DNA of 20,247 nucleotides from a virus. The first letter of the stretch is position 1; each line of letters starts with the position of its first letter. This document shows positions 1,834 to 16,056 of the stretch, piece by piece. Both the position numbers and the translations under genes were made by a program. The DNA lies in the IMG/VR virus record IMGVR_UViG_3300038557_000019, positions 1 through 20,247 of that record; one strand, given 5' to 3'. The notes under the pieces were generated by a model. The model made no database searches. It was not told the origin of the DNA and was given only the letters and a program-made list of their open reading frames with translations.

Positions 1834-2377
1834 GCGGAAGCCCAAGGCGTCGAAGCCGAAGCACGACGATCTGGCGAAGCCCTCGAAGTGGCGACTGCAA
1901 CACGGCGGCTTCTCCGAGCCGGTCCGCGACGCGGATCCGGACACCGGCTCACCCGTCGCCCATCGTCGTGCCGTCGACACGCTCGGGCTGATGCTGGCCA
2001 ATGGCAGCATCACGCCGCAGATGCATGAGGCCGGGGCGATGTTCCGTGTGACCTTCCGCCTCGCCGCACTGGACGGCATGCGCACTACGCAGTTGCTCCG
2101 CATCCAGGGCGGTGGCGCCGACCTGCTGGGCGAACGCCAGGCTGCGGCACGGCGTCGGTTGGCCGCGGCCCTGGACCTGTTCGGTGGCGCGGACAGCGCC
2201 GGCGGAAGCTGCCTGTGGCACGTGCTCGGCCTCGAATGCTCCCTGCGGGAATGGGCACTGCGGCAGAGATGGTCGGGACGTCCGGTTCATCACGTGCAGG
2301 CGCAGGGCATCCTGCTCACGGCGCTCGGCGTGCTGGCGGCCCATTATGGCCTGCAACCGCGCGAGCGTGCCGCGTGA
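1823..2377 (+). CDS. DUF6456-like phage protein
   Basis: The 184-residue protein opens with a lysine-rich basic tail (MAGKRKPKASKPK) that could contact nucleic acid. A helical middle follows (GLMLANGSITPQMHEAGAMF; RVTFRLAALDGMR). The C-terminus (CLWHVLGLECSLREWALRQR, then HHVQAQGILLTALGVLAAHYG) matches the pattern of the DUF6456 domain, found in alphaproteobacterial chromosomal regulators and prophages. DUF6456 has no established biochemical role. The start at 1823 has only a weak purine-rich upstream region and overlaps the previous gene by 11 bases, so translation is probably coupled. It ends three bases before the convergent toxin gene, and no terminator hairpin fits between the two. The family call is by eye. 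Confidence 0.65.
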   Translation: MAGKRKPKASKPKHDDLAKPSKWRLQHGGFSEPVRDADPDTGSPVAHRRAVDTLGLMLANGSITPQMHEAGAMFRVTFRLAALDGMRTTQLLRIQGGGADLLGERQAAARRRLAAALDLFGGADSAGGSCLWHVLGLECSLREWALRQRWSGRPVHHVQAQGILLTALGVLAAHYGLQPRERAA

Positions 2378-2380
2378 GCC

Positions 2381-2884
2381 TCAGCCCAGGGCGGCCTTCA
2401 GGTCGGTCATAGTGGCCATCAGCGTCATTGGGTCGATCGGTGACGGCGCAAAGCCGCAGGCCTGGTAAAAGCGCTGGGCGTCTGCGTTCAGGGCCTGCAC
2501 CAACACGCCGCGCACCGCCAGCACCTCGCTGGCCTGCAGCACGCGCAAGACCGCATCCCGCAGCAGGGCCCGCCCGATGCCCTGGCCGTGCAGGCTGCGG
2601 TCCACCGCCAGTCGGCCCAGCATCGCCATCGGGACCGGGTCTGGCATGTTCCGCTTCACACGGCCTGGAGCGGCGGTCACGGCCACAGCCCCCGCCGCCA
2701 GGCAGTAGAACCCCACCACGAAGCCGGCGCGGCACACCACGAAGGTCCGTGATGCGCCGGCCGCCTGATTCGCCCGCGCACGCCGCCGTAGCCAGTCATC
2801 GAGCGTGGCCTCGCCGCTATCGAACAACGCCAGGTCGTGCGTGTCGTCGAGCGGCGTCGGCGCGCTTAGCCGTTCGGCACTCAC
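2381..2884 (-). CDS. GNAT acetyltransferase toxin, TacT-like
   Basis: The 167-residue protein has the layout of TacT-type toxins, which acetylate the amino group of charged tRNAs and block translation. Residues 15-34 (THDLALFDSGEATLDDWLRR) match the conserved N-terminal segment of this family. LGRLAVDRSLHGQGIGRALL (89-108) carries the acetyl-CoA pyrophosphate-binding loop Q/R-x-x-G-x-G. R138-F139-Y140 supplies the usual catalytic tyrosine. The GTG start at 2884 overlaps the antitoxin stop by four bases (GTGA); a second GTG six bases upstream is possible. Reading the frame back to 3358 would run through the antitoxin gene and is rejected. The gene runs against all neighbours and forms a two-gene unit with the upstream antitoxin. 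tRNA specificity cannot be read from the sequence. Confidence 0.88.
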   Translation of the reverse strand: MSAERLSAPTPLDDTHDLALFDSGEATLDDWLRRRARANQAAGASRTFVVCRAGFVVGFYCLAAGAVAVTAAPGRVKRNMPDPVPMAMLGRLAVDRSLHGQGIGRALLRDAVLRVLQASEVLAVRGVLVQALNADAQRFYQACGFAPSPIDPMTLMATMTDLKAALG

Positions 2885-3204
2885 TCCCACGGAGGCGCGG
2901 TTTCCAGCAGCTTGCGAAGCCGGCCGTTCGGGTTGGGCGGCGCGTCGAGTAGCGCCTGGAACTTGGCGTACGCAGCCGGCTGGGTGCGGAACAGCGTGCG
3001 GTCGAGAATGGCGTCGGTCGCAGCGCGGCGCGCAGCCTCTAGCATGAACTCGGAGCGCGACTTCCCCGAGAGCACGGCGGCCTGGTCGATCAGGGCGCGC
3101 TCCTCGGGCCGGACGCGGATGTTGATCGCGCCGACGGTGATGGCGGGCTGGGCCTTCGCCGGGCGGCGGGTCGGGGTGGTGATGCGCTTGGCGGGTGTGG
3201 GCAT
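2881..3204 (-). CDS. DUF1778 ribbon-helix-helix antitoxin, TacA-like
   Basis: This 107-residue protein has a basic N-terminal tail (1-20). A ribbon-helix-helix DNA-binding unit follows (INIRVRPEERALIDQAAVLS, then GKSRSEFMLEAARRAA, about residues 28-64), the hallmark of DUF1778 antitoxins. The C-terminal region contains the segment TLFRTQPAAYAKFQALLDAP, a conserved DUF1778 stretch expected to wrap around and inhibit the partner acetyltransferase. Antitoxins of this type also repress their own operon. A GGAGG motif lies about six bases upstream of the ATG, and its stop overlaps the toxin start, keeping the two products coupled. The 3238-3250 palindrome upstream is a good candidate for its operator. 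Confidence 0.88.
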   Translation of the reverse strand: MPTPAKRITTPTRRPAKAQPAITVGAINIRVRPEERALIDQAAVLSGKSRSEFMLEAARRAATDAILDRTLFRTQPAAYAKFQALLDAPPNPNGRLRKLLETAPPWE

Positions 3205-3221
3205 GGTGGCCTCCGGGGCTG

Positions 3222-3250
3222 CTTCTACGATTCTGTATGGACATTGTCCA
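3222..3250 (-). promoter_or_regulatory. Candidate promoter of the toxin-antitoxin pair
   Basis: On the minus strand TGGACA (3250-3245) and TAGAAG (3227-3222) are separated by exactly 17 bases. They match the sigma-70 consensus at 5/6 and 4/6 positions. The implied transcript would start near 3215, almost at the ribosome site, so the leader would be very short. This is prediction only. Confidence 0.45.
3238..3250. promoter_or_regulatory. Palindromic operator candidate upstream of tacA
   Basis: tggacattgtcca is a perfect inverted repeat of six-base arms around one central base. It covers the putative -35 box of the toxin-antitoxin promoter, where a ribbon-helix-helix antitoxin would be expected to bind for autorepression. 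The linkage to TacA is inference. Confidence 0.5.
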
Positions 3251-3342
3251 CCACGCAGTCGCGGCGCTGCTGAAACCCGATTGCGGCACCGGAACCAGAA
3301 AGGATAGTGTTTCGACAGTCGTTGAATTGCGACCGCAGCCGA

Positions 3343-3392
3343 GTGGCTCCCGAGCCACCGGCCCGCTGATCAGCCACGGTGGCTCTCGAGCC
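3343..3392. repeat. Paired dyads between the TA pair and the methyltransferases
   Basis: Two sites of the form ggctc-NN-gagcc occur. gtggctcccgagccac (3343-3358) has seven-base arms, and ggctctcgagcc (3381-3392) has five-base arms. They lie 38 bases apart, and between them agccac/gtggct (3372-3377/3379-3384) forms a third dyad. A loop of two bases makes a hairpin unlikely, so protein-binding sites are more plausible. The rest of 3205-3565 contains the elements listed separately and no gene. Confidence 0.5.
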
Positions 3393-3473
3393 GATGGTTC
3401 CTTCCGGGCCCCGCTGTATGCGGGGGGCGGAAGCGCGCAAGGTCGCTAGCGCCAGGCTGAAAATATGGGTTGC

Positions 3474-3555
3474 GGTTTGCAGCCTTGGCCCACCGCCTCA
3501 AACGGTTAGCTGCAAACCATCGCCGCGCCGCGGCCCTGCAAACCACCTGCAAACC
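3474..3555. repeat. Four-copy CTGCAAACC array abutting the methyltransferase start
   Basis: CTGCAAACC occurs at 3510-3518, 3536-3544 and 3547-3555 and inverted at 3474-3482. The last two are 11 bases apart, and the final copy ends ten bases before the ATG at 3566, where no good ribosome site is visible. The position suits an operator array controlling the methyltransferase pair, possibly by autoregulation. Confidence 0.65.
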
Positions 3556-3565
3556 GGATGGCATC

Positions 3566-5035
3566 ATGACGCTTCCCTGGATGGCGGCGAAGATCCTGCT
3601 GCGTCCGGTGGCGGAGCTGCGCCCGCATGCCGGGAACGCTCGCGTGCACAGCGCCGAGCAGCTGGAGCAGATCAAGTCCAGCATGCTGGCTTTCGGCTTC
3701 ACCAACCCGCTGCTGGTGGATGAGGAAGGCGTGCTGATCGCCGGCCATGGTCGCCTCGAGGCGGCGTCCGCACTCGGCATGGCGAAGGTGCCGGTGATCG
3801 TGGTGCGGCACTTGTCCGCCGCGCAGAAGGAGGCGCTGCGGCTCGCCGACAACCGCATCGCGGAGAACGCGACCTGGGACCAGGCGCTGCTGCGTGACGC
3901 GCTGGCCGCGGTGCAGGCGGCGCAGGACATCGACCTCCCCGCGCTCGGCTTCTCGGCGGATGAGCTCGCGGACATCCTCGCGGCGGCTGGAGATGCCGTG
4001 TCCGACGGCGACGCGCCCGAGGCACTGTCCGCGGATCCCGCCGAGGGGGGCGGCGCGACTGGCGCGGCGGATGCGGAGGAGACGGCGGAGGATCCCGCCG
4101 ACGCCGATCCGGAGCCGCCGCGCCAGGCCGTCACCCGTCCCGGCGATCTCTGGCTGCTGGGCGACCACCGCCTTCTGTGCGGCGACAGCACCGACACGGC
4201 CAGCGTGGCGCGCGTGATGGGTGAGGACCGCGCGGCGCTGCTCTTCACGAGCCCGCCCTACGGGAACCAGCGGGACTACACGACCGGCGGCGTCACGGAT
4301 TGGGACGCGCTGATGCAGGGCGTGTTTCAGCATCTCGACGCTGCTATGCGTCCGGACGGCCAAGTGCTGGTGAACCTCGGGCTGATCCATCGCGACAATG
4401 AATGGCAGCCCTATTGGTCCGGCTGGCTCGACTGGATGCGCGGCCGCGGCTGGCGCCGGTTCGGGCTCTACACCTGGGACCAGGGGCCCGGCCTTCCCGG
4501 CGACTGGAACGGGCGGCTGTCGCCCGCATTCGAGCTTCTGTTCCACTTCAATCGGGAATCCCGCCGCCCGAACAAGATCATCCCCTGCCGTTGGGCTGGG
4601 CACGTCAACTCCGAGAAGGGTGGCCTCCGCGCGAAGGACGGCACCGTCGGCGAATGGCAGCACGCCGGCCAGGGCGTCCAAGAGACCCGGATCCCGGACA
4701 ACGTGCTGCGCATCACCCGGCACAAGGCCCGCGGCATCGAGACGGAGCATCCCGCGGTGTTCCCCGTCGCGCTGCCTGACTTCCTGATGCGCGCCTATGC
4801 CGACGACGGCGACGTGGTGTTCGAACCCTTCGCTGGCGCCGGCACCACCATCATCGCCGGCCAGCGGACCGGCCGCCGCGTGCGGGTGATCGAGCTCGCG
4901 CCGGCCTATGTCGATCTGGCCGTGGCCCGGTGGCGCATGCTGCATCCTGACCTGCCGGTGACGCTGGCGGACGACGGTCGCGATTACGACGCCGTGGCCG
5001 CGGCGAGGCAGGAGGTCACCGCCAGTGCAGCCTGA
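3566..5035 (+). CDS. ParB-like / DNA methyltransferase fusion (SPPY type)
   Basis: The 489-residue protein joins two parts. Residues 10-130 form a ParB/sulfiredoxin-like N-terminal domain (VLIAGHGRLEAA, GHGR at 60-63; ALRLADNRIAENATW). An acidic alanine-rich linker runs to about 185. A methyltransferase domain then begins at GDLWLLGDHRLLCGDST. Catalytic motif IV is TSPPYG (228-233), and the S-adenosylmethionine-binding motif FEPFAGAGTT lies at 419-428. Motif IV before motif I is the beta-class order. SPPY is commoner in N4-cytosine enzymes and DPPY in N6-adenine enzymes, so the target base is uncertain. No restriction partner is next to it, so it is probably an orphan modification enzyme protecting phage DNA or altering expression. 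A TTG start at 3470 would run through the repeat array and was rejected. Its stop overlaps the paralogous gene by 11 bases. Confidence 0.87.
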   Translation: MTLPWMAAKILLRPVAELRPHAGNARVHSAEQLEQIKSSMLAFGFTNPLLVDEEGVLIAGHGRLEAASALGMAKVPVIVVRHLSAAQKEALRLADNRIAENATWDQALLRDALAAVQAAQDIDLPALGFSADELADILAAAGDAVSDGDAPEALSADPAEGGGATGAADAEETAEDPADADPEPPRQAVTRPGDLWLLGDHRLLCGDSTDTASVARVMGEDRAALLFTSPPYGNQRDYTTGGVTDWDALMQGVFQHLDAAMRPDGQVLVNLGLIHRDNEWQPYWSGWLDWMRGRGWRRFGLYTWDQGPGLPGDWNGRLSPAFELLFHFNRESRRPNKIIPCRWAGHVNSEKGGLRAKDGTVGEWQHAGQGVQETRIPDNVLRITRHKARGIETEHPAVFPVALPDFLMRAYADDGDVVFEPFAGAGTTIIAGQRTGRRVRVIELAPAYVDLAVARWRMLHPDLPVTLADDGRDYDAVAAARQEVTASAA

Positions 5036-6293
5036 TCTCGTCGTTTCCGCTCTGCCGGTCGCTTCCCTCGTGCCCTATGCCGAAAACGCGCGCACGCATT
5101 CGCCGTCGCAGGTAGCGCAGATCGCGGCCTCCATCGCCGAGTTCGGCTTCGTGAACCCGGTGCTGGTCGATGCCGAGGGCGTGCTAATCGCCGGCCACGG
5201 CCGCGTCATGGCGGCAAAGCAGCTCGGGCTGGCCGCCGTGCCGGTGCTGCGGCTTGGCCATCTGTCCCCGCCGCAGGCGCGTGCCCTGCGCCTGGCCGAC
5301 AACCAGATCGCGTTGAACTCGGGCTGGGACGAAGCGCTGCTGACCGCCGAGATCGCGCGCATTCGCGACGAGGCGGTGGTCGACCTGGACGTGCTCGGCT
5401 TCTCCGGCATGGAATTGGACCGACTGCTGGCCGCCGCTGATGCTGGCCTCGGCGATGATGCCGACGAGGCGCCGCCGCTACCGGCGATCCCCGTCACGCG
5501 CACCGGTGATCTCTGGCGCTGCGGCGATCACCGGGTGCTGTGCGGCGACGCGACAAAGCTGGCGGACGTTCAGCGCGCCCTCGGCGCTGGCCACCTGGCG
5601 GACATGGGCTTCGTCGATCCGCCCTATAATGTCGCCTACGAAGGCGGCACCGCGGCCAAGATGACCATCGCCAACGACGCGCTCGGCGGCGGCTTTCCCG
5701 AGTTCCTGCGCCCCGCGCTGGCCAACCTGCTCTCGGTCACCAAGGGCGCTTGCTACGTCTGCATGTCCTCCTCCGAGTGGCCGACGCTGCATCGGGTCTG
5801 GCAGGAGGCGGGCGGCAAATGGTCCAGCACCATCATCTGGGCGAAGAACACCTTCGCGCTCGGCCGCGCCGACTACCACCAGCAATTCGAGGCGATGCTG
5901 TACGGCTGGAAGGCCGGCGCGCAGCACTACTGGTGCGGCGCGCGCGACCAGGGGAATGTTTGGCACTTCGACAAGCCGGCCCGCAACGACCTGCATCCCA
6001 CCATGAAGCCGGTGGCGCTGGTCGAGCGCGCGATCCGCAACAGCAGCAAGCCGCGGGACACGGTGCTAGACTGCTTCGGCGGGTCGGGCACCACGATGAT
6101 CGCGGCGGAGCGCACGGGACGTCGCGCAGTGCTGCTGGAGATCGATCCCGCCTATGCCGACGTGATCGTGCGGCGGTGGCAGGAGACCACCGGCGAAGCC
6201 GCCGTGCTGAAGGGCGATGATCGCATCTTCGCCGATGTCGCCGCGGCCCGCGGCATTGTCGATCATGATGTGATCCAGACCGCCGAATCATAG
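5025..6293 (+). CDS. ParB-like / DNA methyltransferase fusion (DPPY type)
   Basis: This 422-residue protein is a diverged paralogue of the preceding gene with the same architecture. The ParB-like domain occupies about residues 8-130 (NARTHSPSQV, VLIAGHGRVMAAKQLG with GHGR at 57-60, LRLADNQIALNSGW), joined by a much shorter linker. In the methyltransferase domain, motif IV is VDPPYNVAY (D198-Y201), HPTMKPVALVERAI follows at 324, and the cofactor loop is DCFGGSGTT (349-357). DPPY and beta-class motif order point to N6-adenine methylation. The GTG start has GGAGG nine bases upstream and overlaps the previous stop by 11 bases, so the pair is co-translated. The recognition sequence cannot be inferred, and no nuclease partner lies nearby. 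Confidence 0.88.
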   Translation: MQPDLVVSALPVASLVPYAENARTHSPSQVAQIAASIAEFGFVNPVLVDAEGVLIAGHGRVMAAKQLGLAAVPVLRLGHLSPPQARALRLADNQIALNSGWDEALLTAEIARIRDEAVVDLDVLGFSGMELDRLLAAADAGLGDDADEAPPLPAIPVTRTGDLWRCGDHRVLCGDATKLADVQRALGAGHLADMGFVDPPYNVAYEGGTAAKMTIANDALGGGFPEFLRPALANLLSVTKGACYVCMSSSEWPTLHRVWQEAGGKWSSTIIWAKNTFALGRADYHQQFEAMLYGWKAGAQHYWCGARDQGNVWHFDKPARNDLHPTMKPVALVERAIRNSSKPRDTVLDCFGGSGTTMIAAERTGRRAVLLEIDPAYADVIVRRWQETTGEAAVLKGDDRIFADVAAARGIVDHDVIQTAES

Positions 6294-6396: not shown

Positions 6397-6630
6397 ACCG
6401 ATCGCGAAGCCCGCGCCGCCCGCAACCAGGAAAACAGCCTGGCCGCCTTCCTGGCGAAGAAGGCGGAATTCGATGCCCTTCTCGCGGAACTCACCCAGGC
6501 CAGCGCGGACCATTTCGGCGCGGACCCTGAGACGGTGCTTTGGGGCGAAGCGGCCTGGCTTTCGGATGCCACCGCGAAGCTGAAGGACATCGCGGACCAG
6601 CATTTCCGCCGGGGCGAATACGAAGCCTGA
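6394..6630 (+). CDS. Small hypothetical phage protein
   Basis: The 78-residue product is predicted almost wholly helical (ARNQENSLAAFLAKKAEFDA, then LLAELTQASADHFGADPETV) with no membrane segment or signal peptide. The C-terminus is charged (DIADQHFRRGEYEA). The ATG is preceded by CGGAGACGACC, a ribosome-site block shared with the genes at 1058, 6726 and 7682. An earlier in-frame start at 6325 would read through the repeated leader and is not preferred. I do not recognise a family. Its position between the methyltransferase pair and a DUF3489 protein in the accessory block suggests a non-structural early function, which is inference. Confidence 0.65.
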   Translation: MTDREARAARNQENSLAAFLAKKAEFDALLAELTQASADHFGADPETVLWGEAAWLSDATAKLKDIADQHFRRGEYEA

Positions 6631-6725
6631 AGCGGACCACTCCCGCACCGCCCCGACCGGCGAGGCCGGCGGGGCTCCCGGCAGTAGGGGCCGATGACCG
6701 GCACCCGGAACCGGAGACCACCACG

Positions 6726-7535
6726 ATGACCAAGCTTTCCGACAGCCAGCGCGTGATTCTCAGCGCCGCCGCGCAGCACGAGATGGGCCTCGCCCGCGCG
6801 CCGAAGACCCTGCCGGTTGCCGCGCGCAACGCGGTCTTCCGCAGCCTGATCAAGAACAACCTGCTCACCGAGATCAACGCCCCGCGCGAGCATGTCGGGC
6901 TCGGCTGGCGGCAGGATGAGGACGGCACCTGGATCGTGGCGCGCATCACCGACGAGGGGCTGCGCGCGATCGGCATCGACCCGAACGAGGGCGACGCGGA
7001 GGCCGGCGAGCCCGACTGCTCCGGCATCGAGGGTAGCGTGCCCGACACGGCGCCCGCGGGCGCGGACGACGCCGCCGAGGGGGATGCCTCCGCGGAGGAA
7101 GCCGAACCCGCCCAGGGCGTGCCCACACCCGCCCCGCGCGCGAGCCTGCGCGACGCCGCCGCGGCGGTTCTGGTTGCCTGGGACGCCAGCCCGGCGCAGG
7201 ACGCGACCGACAACCCGATCAGCCGCGCCATCGAGGCCCTCCGCGCCGCCCTCGCCGGCAAGCCCGCCCGCACCGCCCGCGAGCCGGGTGCGCCGCGCAA
7301 GCCTCGCGAGGGCACCAAGCAGGAGCAGGTGCTGGCCATGCTGCGCCGCCCCGAGGGCGCCACGGTCGCGCAGATCGCCGAGGCGACGGGCTGGGCGCAG
7401 CACACGGTCCGCGGCTTCTTCGCCGGGCTGAAGAAGAAGGGCCACGCGGTCGAGGTGCGCGAGCGCATCCGCCAGGTCGGCCCGAACAAGACCGGCGCGA
7501 AGGGGTCCTTCACCGTCTATGCCTTGGCGGAGTGA
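6726..7535 (+). CDS. DUF3489 domain protein
   Basis: The 269-residue protein has three parts. The N-terminal domain (1-90; KLSDSQRVILSAAAQHE, GWRQDEDGTWIVARITDEGL) reads like a winged-helix module of the DUF3489 type. A low-complexity acidic, alanine-rich linker covers about 95-190. The C-terminal DUF3489 domain (KQEQVLAMLRRPEGATVAQI, then AEATGWAQHTVRGFFAGLKK) has a clear helix-turn-helix with conserved W and TVRGFF. DUF3489 proteins are common in alphaproteobacterial chromosomes and phages and are assumed to bind DNA; their targets are unknown. The ATG has GGAG nine bases upstream. A strong hairpin with a short T-run follows 33 bases after the stop, closing this transcription unit. The high negative charge of the linker is typical of the family. 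Confidence 0.82.
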   Translation: MTKLSDSQRVILSAAAQHEMGLARAPKTLPVAARNAVFRSLIKNNLLTEINAPREHVGLGWRQDEDGTWIVARITDEGLRAIGIDPNEGDAEAGEPDCSGIEGSVPDTAPAGADDAAEGDASAEEAEPAQGVPTPAPRASLRDAAAAVLVAWDASPAQDATDNPISRAIEALRAALAGKPARTAREPGAPRKPREGTKQEQVLAMLRRPEGATVAQIAEATGWAQHTVRGFFAGLKKKGHAVEVRERIRQVGPNKTGAKGSFTVYALAE

Positions 7536-8203: not shown

Positions 8204-8225
8204 CCCATCGCGGCTCCGCGATGGG
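8204..8225. promoter_or_regulatory. Perfect inverted repeat before the small terminase gene
   Basis: cccatcgcgg (8204-8213) and ccgcgatggg (8216-8225) are perfect ten-base arms around ct. The right arm contains the ATG at 8221 and abuts the GGAGG ribosome site (8224-8228). No T-run follows, so an operator or an RNA fold hiding the ribosome site is more likely than a terminator. Confidence 0.55.
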
Positions 8226-8241
8226 AGGCAGAGTCGCCGCC

Positions 8242-8757
8242 ATGCCGGAAATGACCGCCTCCACGCGCGAGGCCGCGCGCCGCCTCGGCGTCAGCGACAC
8301 CGCCATCCACAAGGCCGAACGGGCCGGCCGCATCGCCCGCGAGCCGGACGGCAGTTGGGACATCGACAAGACCCGACGCCGCCTGACCGAGACTGCCGAT
8401 CCCGCACGCTCGCCCCTGGCCAGCGGCGCCGGCGCCGAGGGCACGCCCTTCGCCCGGCTGAAAGTGGCGCAGCTCGCGCTGAAGGTGGAGGCGCAGCGCC
8501 TCTCGCTGGATGAGACCAAGCGACGGCTGGTCGATGTCACCGAGGCTAATGCCGCGCTGGACGAAATCGGCAGCACGATGCGCGACGCGCTGCTGAACTG
8601 GCCCGCCCGCGTCTCCGGCCTGATCGCGGCCGAGATCAGCGTCGACCCGCATCTGCTGCAGACCATCCTGCAGAGCCACATCAACGACCTGCTGACGGAG
8701 GCGGCCGATCGCTTCGATCCAGCAGGCCTCGGAGGGGACCGGTCTTCGCAGCCGTGA
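8242..8757 (+). CDS. Terminase small subunit, Nu1-like
   Basis: The 171-residue protein starts with a helix-turn-helix (TASTREAARRLGVSDTAIHK, residues 4-23) like that of lambda gpNu1 small terminases, which recognise the packaging site on phage DNA. A long charged helical segment follows (about 70-115, AQLALKVEAQRLSLDETKRR), suited to oligomerisation. The C-terminal helices (LNWPARVSGLIAAEISVDPH onward) probably contact the large subunit. The gene lies just upstream of the large terminase. Starts at 8221 and 8251 are also possible; 8242 was taken because GGAGG lies upstream, although 13 bases is a long spacing. The call rests on the helix-turn-helix plus genomic position. Confidence 0.78.
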   Translation: MPEMTASTREAARRLGVSDTAIHKAERAGRIAREPDGSWDIDKTRRRLTETADPARSPLASGAGAEGTPFARLKVAQLALKVEAQRLSLDETKRRLVDVTEANAALDEIGSTMRDALLNWPARVSGLIAAEISVDPHLLQTILQSHINDLLTEAADRFDPAGLGGDRSSQP

Positions 8758-8761
8758 GCAT

Positions 8762-10696
8762 GTGCGCCGCCGTGTCGGCGCGATGCTGCGCCCGCCGCCG
8801 CAGCTCACCGTCTCGGAATGGGCCGAGCGCCACCGCATGCTGGGCAGCCGCGCCTCGGCGGAGCCCGGCCCCTGGCGGACCAGCCGCACGCCCTACCTGA
8901 AGGACGTGATGGACGCGCTCTCGGCGGTGCATCCCGCCCGGCGCGTCGTCTTCATGAAGGGTGCGCAGGTCGGCGCCACCGAGAGCGGCAACAACTGGCT
9001 CGGCTACATCATGCATCACGTGCCGGCACCCGCCCTGGCGGTGCAGCCGACCGTGGAGCTGGCCAAGCGCTTCTCGCGCCAGCGCATCGACCCACTGCTG
9101 GAGGAAACCCCGGCGCTGCGGGAACGGGTGGCGCCGGCCCGCGCGCGCGACAGCGGCAACACCATGCTGTCGAAGGAATTCCCCGGCGGCATCCTGGTGC
9201 TCACGGGCGCCAACAGCGCGGTCGGGCTGCGCTCGATGACGGCGCGGTTCCTGTTCCTGGACGAGGTGGATGCCTATCCCGGCGACGTTGCCGGCGAAGG
9301 TGACCCCATTGCCCTGGCCGAGGCCCGCGCCCGCACCTTCGGTTGGCGGCGCAAGGCCTTCCTGGTCTCGACGCCCACCATCGCCGGCCGTAGCCGGATC
9401 GAGCGCGAGTATCTCGCCTCCGACCAGCGGCGCTTCTTCGTGCCGTGCACGGCCTGCGGCGAGATGCAGTGGCTGCGCTTCGAGCGGCTGCTCTGGGAGA
9501 AGGGGGCGCCGGAGACGGCTCGGTATCACTGCACCGCCTGTGACCACCCCATGCAGGAGCACGACAAGACCGCCATGCTCGGCGGCGGCGAATGGCGCGC
9601 GACGGCCGAGGGCCAGGATCCGCACACCATCGGCTTCCACATTTCGGCGCTCTACTCGCCGGTGGGCTGGCTCTCCTGGGAGCAGATCGCCCGCGATTGG
9701 GAGGCCGCCCAGGGCAAGCCCGAGGACATCAAGACCTTCAAGAACACGGTCCTCGGCGAGACCTGGCAGGAGCAGGGCGAGGCGCCGGATTGGGAGCGGC
9801 TCGTCGAGCGCCGCGAAGATTTCGTCATGGGCGTGGTGCCGACCGGCGCCTTGGTGCTCACCGCCGGCGTGGACGTCCAGGACGACCGCCTCGAATGCGA
9901 CGTCTGGGGCTGGGCGGAGGGCTTCTCCTCCTGGCTCGTCGATCACGTGGTGATCCCCGGCAGCCCGAGGGACCGCGAGCCCTGGGACGAACTGGCTCGG
10001 GTGCTGGCGCGCGACTGGCCCCGCCATGGCGCTGGCGCGATGCGCATCGCCCGGCTCTGCGTCGATACCGGCGGCCGGGACACCGCCGCCGTCTATGGCC
10101 ACCTCCGGCGGCTGCGGGATCCGCGCATCGCCCCGACGAAGGGGATCGATGGCTGGAACCGGGCGCAACCCGTCCAGGGCCCGACGCCGGTGGACGCGCT
10201 GGTCAACGGCCAGAAGCTGCGCCGCGGCCTCAAGCTGTGGACCGTCTCGGTCTCGACCTGGAAGGCAGACCTCTATCGCCGGCTCTGGCTCGGCCGCGGC
10301 GACGCGGAGGAGCTGCCGCCCGGCTGGGTGCATCTGCCGCGCGCGATCGACGTCGAATGGGTCAAGCAGCTGGTCGCCGAGCAGCTGCGCACCACCAAGG
10401 ATCGCCGCGGCTTTGCCCGGCAGGAATGGGCCAAGCTGCGCGAGCGGAACGAGGCGCTGGACTGCGCCGTGCTGGCCCGCGCCGCGCTCTGGCTGCTCGG
10501 CGCCGATCGCTATGGCGAGCGGTTTTGGCAGCAGCTGCGCGACCAGATCGCCGATGCACCGCTTCTGCCGAGCGAACTTCCCACCGCAGGGAATGTCGCT
10601 GATCCATCACCACCATCGCAGGCCGCGCGGGCGCAGGCGCTCGACGCCCAGCGCCCGCGGGGTTGGCTGGCGCCGCGCAGTGGCTGGCTTCGCTGA
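8762..10696 (+). CDS. Terminase large subunit, GpA family
   Basis: The 644-residue protein is the packaging motor and nuclease that cuts and pumps DNA into the prohead. The N-terminal ATPase domain shows a Walker A-like loop MKGAQVGATES (65-75) and Walker B FLFLDEVD (163-170), followed by the coupling stretch FLVSTPTIAG (200-209). A CTAC pair (229-232 and 257-260) forms the zinc-binding insertion typical of GpA relatives. The nuclease domain has acidic residues in AGVDVQDDRLE (D371, D374/D375), CVDTGGRDT (D435) and NEALDCAVLARAA (D567). Length agrees with lambda gpA (641). The GTG start at 8762 has no close ribosome site, so translation may be coupled to the small subunit; ATG 8783 is an alternative. 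The proline/alanine-rich tail beyond residue 600 is variable in the family. Confidence 0.95.
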   Translation: MRRRVGAMLRPPPQLTVSEWAERHRMLGSRASAEPGPWRTSRTPYLKDVMDALSAVHPARRVVFMKGAQVGATESGNNWLGYIMHHVPAPALAVQPTVELAKRFSRQRIDPLLEETPALRERVAPARARDSGNTMLSKEFPGGILVLTGANSAVGLRSMTARFLFLDEVDAYPGDVAGEGDPIALAEARARTFGWRRKAFLVSTPTIAGRSRIEREYLASDQRRFFVPCTACGEMQWLRFERLLWEKGAPETARYHCTACDHPMQEHDKTAMLGGGEWRATAEGQDPHTIGFHISALYSPVGWLSWEQIARDWEAAQGKPEDIKTFKNTVLGETWQEQGEAPDWERLVERREDFVMGVVPTGALVLTAGVDVQDDRLECDVWGWAEGFSSWLVDHVVIPGSPRDREPWDELARVLARDWPRHGAGAMRIARLCVDTGGRDTAAVYGHLRRLRDPRIAPTKGIDGWNRAQPVQGPTPVDALVNGQKLRRGLKLWTVSVSTWKADLYRRLWLGRGDAEELPPGWVHLPRAIDVEWVKQLVAEQLRTTKDRRGFARQEWAKLRERNEALDCAVLARAALWLLGADRYGERFWQQLRDQIADAPLLPSELPTAGNVADPSPPSQAARAQALDAQRPRGWLAPRSGWLR

Positions 10697-13950: not shown

Positions 13951-16056
13951 ATGACAGAGCCGATTGACCCGGGCGGGGGCTCCCCCGCGCCGGAGGCCAC
14001 GCCATTGCCCGATCGACTGCCCATCGCTGGGCAGTCGATCGCCGCCTGCCGCGCCCTGGCCGCGCCCGTTACCGTCGACCGTGCCGCGCGCACCGTCGAG
14101 GTGGTGTGGTCCACCGGCGCCCGCGCGCGGAACTTCGTGCCCCCGCTCGGTCCTATCATCGAGGAGCTCGACATGCGGCCGGAGGCGGTGCGCATGGACG
14201 CGCTGCGCTCGGGCCGCGCGCCCGTCCTCGACACGCACCGCCGCGCCGGGACGCGGGATGTGCTCGGCCGCGTCACCGCCGCCCGCCTCGAGGCCGGCCG
14301 CGGCTACGCCACGCTCCAGTTCAGCGGCGCGGACGACGTCGAGCAGGTCTGGCAGCGCGTCGCGGACGGCACGCTGCAGTCCGTCAGCGTCGGCTATCGC
14401 GTTCATCGCTACGAGCCCCGGCCCGACGCCGCCACCGGCCAGACCATCCACCGTGCCGTGGATTGGGAGCCCTACGAGATCTCGATCGTGCCGGTGCCGG
14501 TGGACGGCTTGGCCGTGGTCCGTGGCGAGGGGGATCAGGGCACCCCCGCCACCGCCATCGAACCCGCCCTGACCATCCCCGAGGAAACACCCATGCCCGA
14601 GACGACGCCGGCTTCGCCGGATCCCGCGCCGGCGCCGCCCGCGCCGCCCAGCACCCCGCCCCAGGAGAGCCCCGTGACCACCACCGCCCCGCCGGAACCC
14701 ACCCGCGCCGCGCCGACCCCGCCCGATCTCGACGCCATCCGCGCCGAGGCGGACCGCGCCGCCGTCGAGCGCATCGCCGCCTATGAGCCGGTGCTGGCCG
14801 GCGCCCGTGGCCTGGTGACCCCCGACATGCTCGACGCCATGCGCGAGGCCGCCATCCGCGACCGCATCTCGCCCGAGGTGCTGCGTGGCCGCCTGTGGGA
14901 CGCCTTCGCCCAGAGCGCGCCGCGTCCCTCCCTGCCGGCGAGCCCGGAGACCGGCCCCGGCCAGGACGACCCGGCCAGCCTGCTCGACGCCATGGCCGAG
15001 GCGCTCGCCGCCCGCTCCATGCCCGGCTACCACGCGCCCAGCACGGGCCCCGGCGCCGGCCGCCACGTCGAGTTCATGGGTTGGCGCCCCTCCGACATGA
15101 TGGGCGAACTGCTCCGCGCCCGCGGCGAGCGCAACATCCCCCGCAACCCGACCATCCTGGCCGAGCGCGCCTTCCACACCACCAGCGACTTCCCCGCGCT
15201 GCTCTCGGCCGCGGCCAACAAGATGCTGCTCGCGGCCTACGCCCCGGCGCAGCCGACCTATCGCACGCTGTTCCTCCGCCGCGATTTTCGGGACTTCAAG
15301 CCGCACCGCCACCTGCGCGTGGGGGATTTCCCCAACCTCGTAGCGCTGTCCGAGAACGGCGAGATCCAGGCCGGCACCATGTCGGAAAGCCAGGAGCTGG
15401 TGTTCCTGCAGACCTTCGCGCGGCGCATCCGCGTCACGCGGCAGATGCTGGTCAACGACGACCTCGGCGCCTTCACCGACTTCGCCAGCATGATCGGCCG
15501 GCGCGTCGCCGACTTCGAGAACGCCACGGCCTATGCGCTGGTGAACAGCGCCACCGGCGACGGCCCGACGCTGGTGACCGGCGCGGCGCCGGTCTTTGCC
15601 ACCGGCGCCGCGCGGCTGAATAAGGCCACCGCCGGCACGCTGCTCGACCTGGGCAATCTCGCGCTGGGGCGTGCAGCGGTCATGCGCCAGCGGACGCTGG
15701 ACGGGCTGCCCATCGCGGTGGGCTCCCAGATGCGCCTGCTGGTCGGGCCGAACCAGGAGCTCGCCGCGCGGCAGCTCACCGTCTCGGTGCAGGCGACGCA
15801 GACCAGCAACGCCAACGTCTACGCGGGCTTCGTGCAGCCACTCGTCGAGCCGCTGATCCCGGCCAACCGCTGGTACCTGTTCTCCGATCCCTTCGCGGCA
15901 CCGGTCTATGTCTACGGCTACCTCAACGGGGCAGAAGGGCCGCAGGTCACCACCGGCAACGTCCAGGGCGTGGATGGCGTCGAGGTCAGCGTGATCTTCG
16001 ACTTCGGCGTCGGCGCAATCGACTGGCGCGGCGCCTGGTTCAATCCGGGCACCTGA
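13951..16056 (+). CDS. Prohead protease / major capsid protein fusion
   Basis: The 701-residue protein joins two normally separate functions. Residues 40-195 form an HK97-type prohead protease: APVLDTHRRAGTRDVLGRVT (catalytic H96), LQSVSVGYRVHRYEP (probable nucleophile S146) and WEPYEISIVPVPVDGLAVV. A proline/threonine-rich linker covers about 210-260. A charged helical scaffold or delta-domain-like segment (DAIRAEADRAAVERIAAYEP) runs to about 340. Residues 370-701 form the capsid subunit (DFPALLSAAANKMLLAAYAP, LFLRRDFRDFKPHRHLRVGD, RIRVTRQMLVNDDLGAFTDF, and a C-terminal FDFGVGAIDWRGAWFNPGT). The protease would cut itself and the linker during prohead maturation. CAGGAG seven bases upstream supports the start. 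An internal in-frame ATG at 14593 could give a separate capsid precursor. A strong hairpin follows the stop. Confidence 0.92.
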   Translation: MTEPIDPGGGSPAPEATPLPDRLPIAGQSIAACRALAAPVTVDRAARTVEVVWSTGARARNFVPPLGPIIEELDMRPEAVRMDALRSGRAPVLDTHRRAGTRDVLGRVTAARLEAGRGYATLQFSGADDVEQVWQRVADGTLQSVSVGYRVHRYEPRPDAATGQTIHRAVDWEPYEISIVPVPVDGLAVVRGEGDQGTPATAIEPALTIPEETPMPETTPASPDPAPAPPAPPSTPPQESPVTTTAPPEPTRAAPTPPDLDAIRAEADRAAVERIAAYEPVLAGARGLVTPDMLDAMREAAIRDRISPEVLRGRLWDAFAQSAPRPSLPASPETGPGQDDPASLLDAMAEALAARSMPGYHAPSTGPGAGRHVEFMGWRPSDMMGELLRARGERNIPRNPTILAERAFHTTSDFPALLSAAANKMLLAAYAPAQPTYRTLFLRRDFRDFKPHRHLRVGDFPNLVALSENGEIQAGTMSESQELVFLQTFARRIRVTRQMLVNDDLGAFTDFASMIGRRVADFENATAYALVNSATGDGPTLVTGAAPVFATGAARLNKATAGTLLDLGNLALGRAAVMRQRTLDGLPIAVGSQMRLLVGPNQELAARQLTVSVQATQTSNANVYAGFVQPLVEPLIPANRWYLFSDPFAAPVYVYGYLNGAEGPQVTTGNVQGVDGVEVSVIFDFGVGAIDWRGAWFNPGT
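14580..14595 (+). promoter_or_regulatory. Possible internal ribosome site and start in the protease-capsid gene
   Basis: gaggaaacacccatg places GAGGA about eight bases before an in-frame ATG (14593-14595), exactly at the boundary between protease and proline-rich linker. Initiation here would yield a 487-residue scaffold-capsid product without protease, supplying the excess of capsid protein needed per prohead. This is prediction only. Confidence 0.45.

Follow-up and report, generated by a model that had tools for sequence, protein, structure and literature searches.

Paired ParB-methyltransferase fusion genes before the terminase of Acetobacteraceae prophages: a conserved SPPY-DPPY order and exchange of the second catalytic half

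A phage that carries two adjacent methyltransferase genes, each fused to a ParB-like domain, raises the questions of whether the two enzymes place the same mark on DNA and what the ParB half does. We analyzed such a locus in a virus record of 20,247 bases (hereafter the window, meaning this whole stretch). Gene A (3566..5035; ATG start, 489 aa) and gene B (5025..6293; GTG start, 422 aa) are encoded on the plus strand and overlap by 11 bp (5025-5035). Both were assigned from the open reading frames, domain matches and AF2 models (pLDDT 78 for A and 83 for B) as fusions of a ParB fold with a beta-class amino-methyltransferase, with TSPPY as motif IV in A and DPPY in B. A Shine-Dalgarno-like AGGAGG for gene B (5010..5015, plus strand) is located within the 3′ end of A, 9 bases 5′ of the GTG. 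The ParB/Srx domain has about 140 aa and a GHGR motif in A and B alike. In A, it covers approximately residues 1-140 (3566..3985, plus strand), with GHGR at 60-63 and a box III DN at 95-96. It is followed by a long low-confidence linker (approximately residues 143-191; 3992..4139, plus strand; pLDDT below 50 over 143-174) and by the methyltransferase domain (4142..5032, plus strand), which contains TSPPY (228-232), the recognition region and motif X/I, HPAVFP...FAGAGTT. In B, the ParB/Srx domain (5025..5438, plus strand; GHGR at 57-60) is joined to a methyltransferase domain (5499..6260, plus strand) with DPPY (198-201) and FGGSGTT.

The domain searches gave the same picture. The Pfam family PF01555 (N6_N4_Mtase) was matched by A (E-value 1.9e-20) and by B (2.2e-24), and ParB_N was matched weakly, under the Pfam cut-off, by both (7e-5 and 6e-4). 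The family phrog_498 ("DNA methyltransferase") spans residues 4-484 of A (4e-105) and 9-407 of B (1e-141), and phrog ParB families match at 4e-50 and 2e-51, respectively. In both proteins, a motif IV of the form (S/D/N)PP(Y/F/W) precedes an F.G.G motif I (FAGAGTT in A, FGGSGTT in B), as in the beta class. The distance from GHGR to PPY is about 170 residues in A and 141 in B, and each spacing is typical for its own family; thus, the longer linker of A is real. The ORFs, Pfam and phrog_498 therefore bear out what an earlier note on this DNA had read from the letters, namely adjacent genes with an 11-base overlap and a common two-domain design, and its contrasts of SPPY against DPPY, which mark separate catalytic subfamilies, and of a long against a short linker stand as well. 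The same note had called the design unusual. This is not so in phages, where hundreds of records exist (PMC6536676; PMC12704722).

To place A and B relative to each other, a maximum-likelihood tree of 44 representatives was examined. The SPPY and DPPY proteins form two clades (support 100/99), each of which includes members from Acetobacteraceae and Acidithiobacillus. Recent local duplication is thus ruled out, bar a single tree row. Of the term "tandem paralogues" used earlier, the common design holds and the local duplication does not, since the tree shows ancient subfamilies. Between A and B of the window, identity is 54% in the ParB half, 23% in the middle part (motif V to the recognition region) and 40% in the C-terminal part with motif X/I. 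Gene conversion homogenising the ParB halves was considered and rejected: A/B ParB identity is 54.4% within a locus and 52.9% between loci. The sole misplaced row belongs to the only reversed pair (L308:3624-6488), in which a DPPY gene stands upstream of an SPPY gene. Both proteins of that pair cluster together in the full-length tree, possibly because of a shared or converted ParB half.

We then asked whether the pair is a unit. Loci were collected with three queries: A, B and the A gene of Acidithiobacillus phage AcaML1, which is 50% identical. The order SPPY to DPPY was found in 168 of 169 distinct adjacent pairs. Among about 165 related pairs, 133 are inferred to have the 11-bp overlap, and its recurrence shows that the arrangement is not due to chance. 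When genes were selected on A, a downstream DPPY ParB-methyltransferase was present for 124 of 132 distinct related genes; the others had a partner fragment (3), no partner despite room (4) or a position at the contig edge (1). Among 72 distinct B genes, 70 had upstream room, and none of these lacked an upstream A. In four AcaML1-like phages (L257, L259, L260 and L265), about 480 bp are inserted between A and B. Solitary B-like genes occur in Wolbachia WO, Streptococcus and environmental phages, and solitary A-like genes in L291-L303. Thus, A and B are a conserved, translationally coupled unit in some phage groups, and the pairing is not obligatory.

Pairing and translational coupling would also suit a catalytically dead helper that assists its partner, as METTL14 does for METTL3. 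However, SPPY and the motif-I F.G.G are invariant in 50 A sequences, as are DPPY and F.G.G in 37 B sequences. The median dN/dS of A is 0.20 in the ParB half, 0.19 in the methyltransferase half and 0.44 in the linker; that of B is 0.145 and 0.116 in the ParB and methyltransferase halves. Because the catalytic motifs are invariant and the genes are under purifying selection, neither A nor B looks dead, and judged from their sequences both look like working methyltransferases. The invariant motifs and low dN/dS in both genes, together with the solitary occurrence of each kind, make a dead partner hardly credible. Inactivity of one enzyme, which the earlier note had named as an outcome that would speak against two different activities, is likewise disfavoured.

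The target bases were approached by profile and structure searches. The profile of A matched TTHA0409 (TSPPY, putative) first, and then PvuII and rotifer enzymes, both of which are N4-cytosine methyltransferases. The profile of B matched M1.HpyAVI and CcrM, which are both N6-adenine enzymes. In the structure search, A and B fall among beta-class enzymes; m6A and m4C enzymes rank about equal for A, whereas M1.HpyAVI and CcrM are on top for B. Motif IV foretells the target base only statistically. The best guess is that A most likely forms m4C and B m6A, and the two enzymes probably act on different bases or sites. Our search of the open-access literature for a methylome of any Roseomonas-group phage found none.

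A different explanation is that A and B serve one asymmetric site, A methylating C on one strand and B methylating A on the other. Such M1/M2 pairs of strand-specific methyltransferases are known in type IIS systems. The pairing and order are fixed across a wide phage range, and the best solved relative of B, M1.HpyAVI, is known as one half of an adjacent pair of this kind; both facts fit this explanation. We looked at how the two genes vary within one phage group, namely 134 pairs in which the methyltransferase half of A is at least 70% identical to that of the window. The methyltransferase half of B is of the window's type in 117 of these pairs and of another type, 44% identical, in 17. The other type is akin to solitary enzymes such as gp67 of Aurantimonas phage AmM-1. 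In the 17 pairs, the ParB half of B is mostly 73-95% identical to that of the window (64-66% in L173 and L020), and gene A is 80-90% identical where the methyltransferase half of B is replaced. The DNA of L037 is 86.5% identical to the window over 3345-5434, shows no match until 6260, and then resumes at 84%. In the closest swapped relatives, the breakpoint lies at about 5404-5435, which is the end of the ParB domain of B. Parsimony on the tree of B ParB halves, a rough estimate from few columns, gave 8 type changes, at least 4 of them on well-supported branches. The methyltransferase half of B has thus been replaced four or more times, with little change in its ParB half or in A.

The exchange is one-sided. 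Where ParB halves are at least 85% identical, the methyltransferase halves are less than 60% identical in 786 of 5660 comparisons of B and in 0 of 5295 comparisons of A. Since pairs were sampled by similarity to A or B, we considered a sampling artefact; as a partial check, selection based on B likewise gave only A-type partners. The converse swap, a replaced ParB half with a methyltransferase half at least 85% identical, is seen in gene A of two loci (L151, L281) and gene B of two others (L261, L270), and the ParB halves in the examples listed are 51-58% identical. In one strain of Siccirubricoccus deserti, two prophages (L176/L024 and L180/L037) carry different types of B methyltransferase with near-identical A and B ParB halves. 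In this strain, SYSU D8009, L176/L024 has B of the DPPYNVAY type and L180/L037 B of the DPPYGVNY type; between the two prophages, identity is 91-94% for A, 95% for the ParB half of B and 47% for its methyltransferase half. The same two-type pattern, with more divergence, was found in Roseococcus sp. SDR (L187 and L189).

The repeated replacement of the catalytic half of B next to an unchanged A speaks against a common site, because a change in B alone would break it. In addition, solitary forms occur among close relatives of B (Wolbachia, Streptococcus and other phages) and among relatives of A (L291-L303), and no restriction endonuclease was matched among the neighboring genes checked by Pfam, phrog and PADLOC, although a wholly novel type is possible. 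We accordingly consider strand-specific methylation of a single asymmetric site highly unlikely. Labelling the pair as a defence system was also tried and dropped, PADLOC giving just generic type II or orphan methyltransferases.

The swaps at the ParB-methyltransferase joint direct attention to the ParB half, and suggest that it is a constant adaptor to which different specificity modules can be joined. By sequence profile and by structure, the fold matches CDP-bound Spo0J and Noc. In an alignment to CDP-bound B. subtilis Spo0J, GHGR falls on GERR and DN on the box III EN. Of the 50 A sequences, 48 retain the P-motif arginine and 47 the box III N; of the 37 B sequences, 36 retain each of these residues. 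The box III E is replaced by D. ParB/Noc CTP-dependent DNA clamps thus share the N-terminal fold, the P-motif arginine and the box III N with A and B. They differ in that the domain scan of A and B gave just ParB_N and methyltransferase, with no HTH or C-terminal dimer domain, and in GHGR for GERR and D for the box III E. In a 2025 survey of the ParB fold, 11 of 28 purified proteins bound CTP, ATP or GTP and 17 bound no nucleotide; binding required the P-motif arginine (PMC12704722). The same survey found fusions to N6/N4 methyltransferases enriched in phages and prophages and suggested an anti-defence role, and the binders described in its text include no named phage N6/N4-methyltransferase fusion (PMC12704722). 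The earlier note had left the role of the fusion in phages as unexplained, but a proposal that ParB fusions steer modification at packaging was already in print (Iyer et al. 2013, cited by PMC6536676).

The ParB domain might equally have lost any switch and be a relic, a plain DNA-binding or dimerisation piece, a nuclease or a kinase. GHGR stands in place of GERR, the boxes are partly conserved, an older annotation is nuclease, and NTP binding was absent from many proteins of the fold (PMC12704722). Nevertheless, the arginine required for NTP binding in the tested members of the fold and the box III N are kept at the frequencies given above, and dN/dS is as low in the ParB half as in the catalytic half. 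A ParB domain that is no nucleotide switch is therefore rather unlikely, and nucleotide-gated DNA loading near packaging may be its role.

That position is just upstream of the terminase. The terminase small subunit (phrog_57; 8221..8757, plus strand) and the large subunit gpA, with ATPase and nuclease (8762..10696, plus strand), follow the pair, and portal and capsid genes come after them. Among the 99 related pairs whose sequence extends far enough, 98 have TerL downstream. From this context, the locus counts as ParB-Tls. No adjacent parA was found among the scanned genes of the window. In phages of Rhodobacter, E. coli and Vibrio, this position ahead of the terminase is taken by stand-alone ParB-fold genes, approximately 45-52% identical to the present ParB domain, and RcBaka has one there without a methylase; thus, the slot may not concern methylation. 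A DUF3489 protein (PF11994, phrog_10315; 6540-7535) is encoded downstream of gene B, ahead of the terminase genes. Upstream of A, on the minus strand at 2381-3204, there is a likely toxin-antitoxin system with a TacA-like antitoxin (PF08681, 1e-23) and a GNAT acetyltransferase. The relatives L037 and L044 have no DNA matching the region of about 2345-3345, which therefore looks like an inserted module. Farther downstream (13951-16056), a head maturation protease and a major capsid protein are joined in a single 701-aa frame that matches phrog_4523, "major head and protease protein".

The relatives that reach 95% identity reside as prophages in Roseococcus, Roseomonas and other Acetobacteraceae, and the phage is a member of this prophage group of Roseomonas and relatives. 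Six host genomes gave 2 to 9 matches apiece, mostly adjacent pairs, with a maximum of four complete pairs per genome. Several of these genomes have three or four complete pairs, that is, several prophages, and a few further copies contain in-frame stops.

Temperate lifestyles and the many prophages with the pair would also fit enzymes that methylate promoters or origins, of either the phage or its host, and so steer lysogeny or replication instead of protecting packaged DNA. CcrM-like phage enzymes are thought to be regulatory in this sense, and those with GANTC specificity are located in replication modules (PMC5537653). In contrast, the present pair stands before the terminase. Besides its ParB fusion gp67, Aurantimonas phage AmM-1 encodes a distinct methyltransferase, gp62, of a group reported to be GANTC-specific. 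GANTC specificity was not assigned to this fusion, because the accession in PMC6536676 is that of gp62. Moreover, exchange of specificity is easier to reconcile with an arms race than with a regulatory site that stays fixed. A regulatory role is thus unlikely.

Taken together, we favor, with moderate confidence, the reading that both A and B are functional solitary methyltransferases, likely for m4C and m6A, respectively, that act on different sites and give independent protective marks before packaging; here the target bases, the sites and the protective purpose are inferred parts of the explanation. Both enzymes would be made from the coupled gene pair just upstream of the terminase, their expression being late to judge from this position. 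The ParB domains may load them on DNA through nucleotide gating. Each enzyme would then place its own mark on replicated phage DNA ahead of packaging, and the marks would protect the DNA injected into the next host. Swapping the catalytic half of B would alter one mark and leave the adaptor undisturbed. A more specific version can be put forward only tentatively: a fixed nucleotide-gated ParB adaptor would be tied to the terminase/packaging locus, with the methyltransferase halves as plug-in specificity cassettes. Within this phage group, the first enzyme would stay constant, and recombination where ParB meets the methyltransferase would switch the second.

The fusion type, its genome position and its spread across phages are already known. 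ParB-Tls fusions (phrog_498; Paracoccus prophages, PMC6536676) likewise join ParB to an m6A/m4C methyltransferase upstream of the terminase; as described there, they are single genes with the target unspecified, whereas the present locus is an SPPY-DPPY tandem with exchange in the second gene. Wolbachia phage WO met1/met2 (PMC3089641) encode ParB with a DPPY methyltransferase 43-45% identical to B, upstream of the terminase, but as a single gene, and the locus inspected showed no A-type partner. M.PvuII and rotifer N4CMT (for A) and M1.HpyAVI and CcrM (for B) have the same beta-class cores with motif IV before motif I, but lack a ParB domain and are about 16-24% identical in structural alignment. 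The fixed two-gene form exists unremarked in GenBank as gp24/gp25 of AcaML1, which are also in the order SPPY to DPPY before the terminase, 50% and 54% identical, with a 4-bp overlap instead of 11 bp, and annotated merely as DNA modification methylases. No description of the A/B pair as a unit or of the half-gene exchange was found in the open-access literature. Both the fixed pairing and the recurrent replacement of the catalytic half of B behind a constant ParB half thus appear undescribed.

Solitary methyltransferases of phages are usually catalogued singly. Here, two chemically distinct ones are fixed and coupled in many phages. The function of a ParB/CTPase fold on a phage methyltransferase becomes a directly testable question, and natural pairs that share A and the ParB half of B but differ in the methyltransferase half of B provide material to test the role of ParB. 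If the adaptor proposal is true, phages, and even two prophages of one strain, would bear the same adaptors but different DNA marks.
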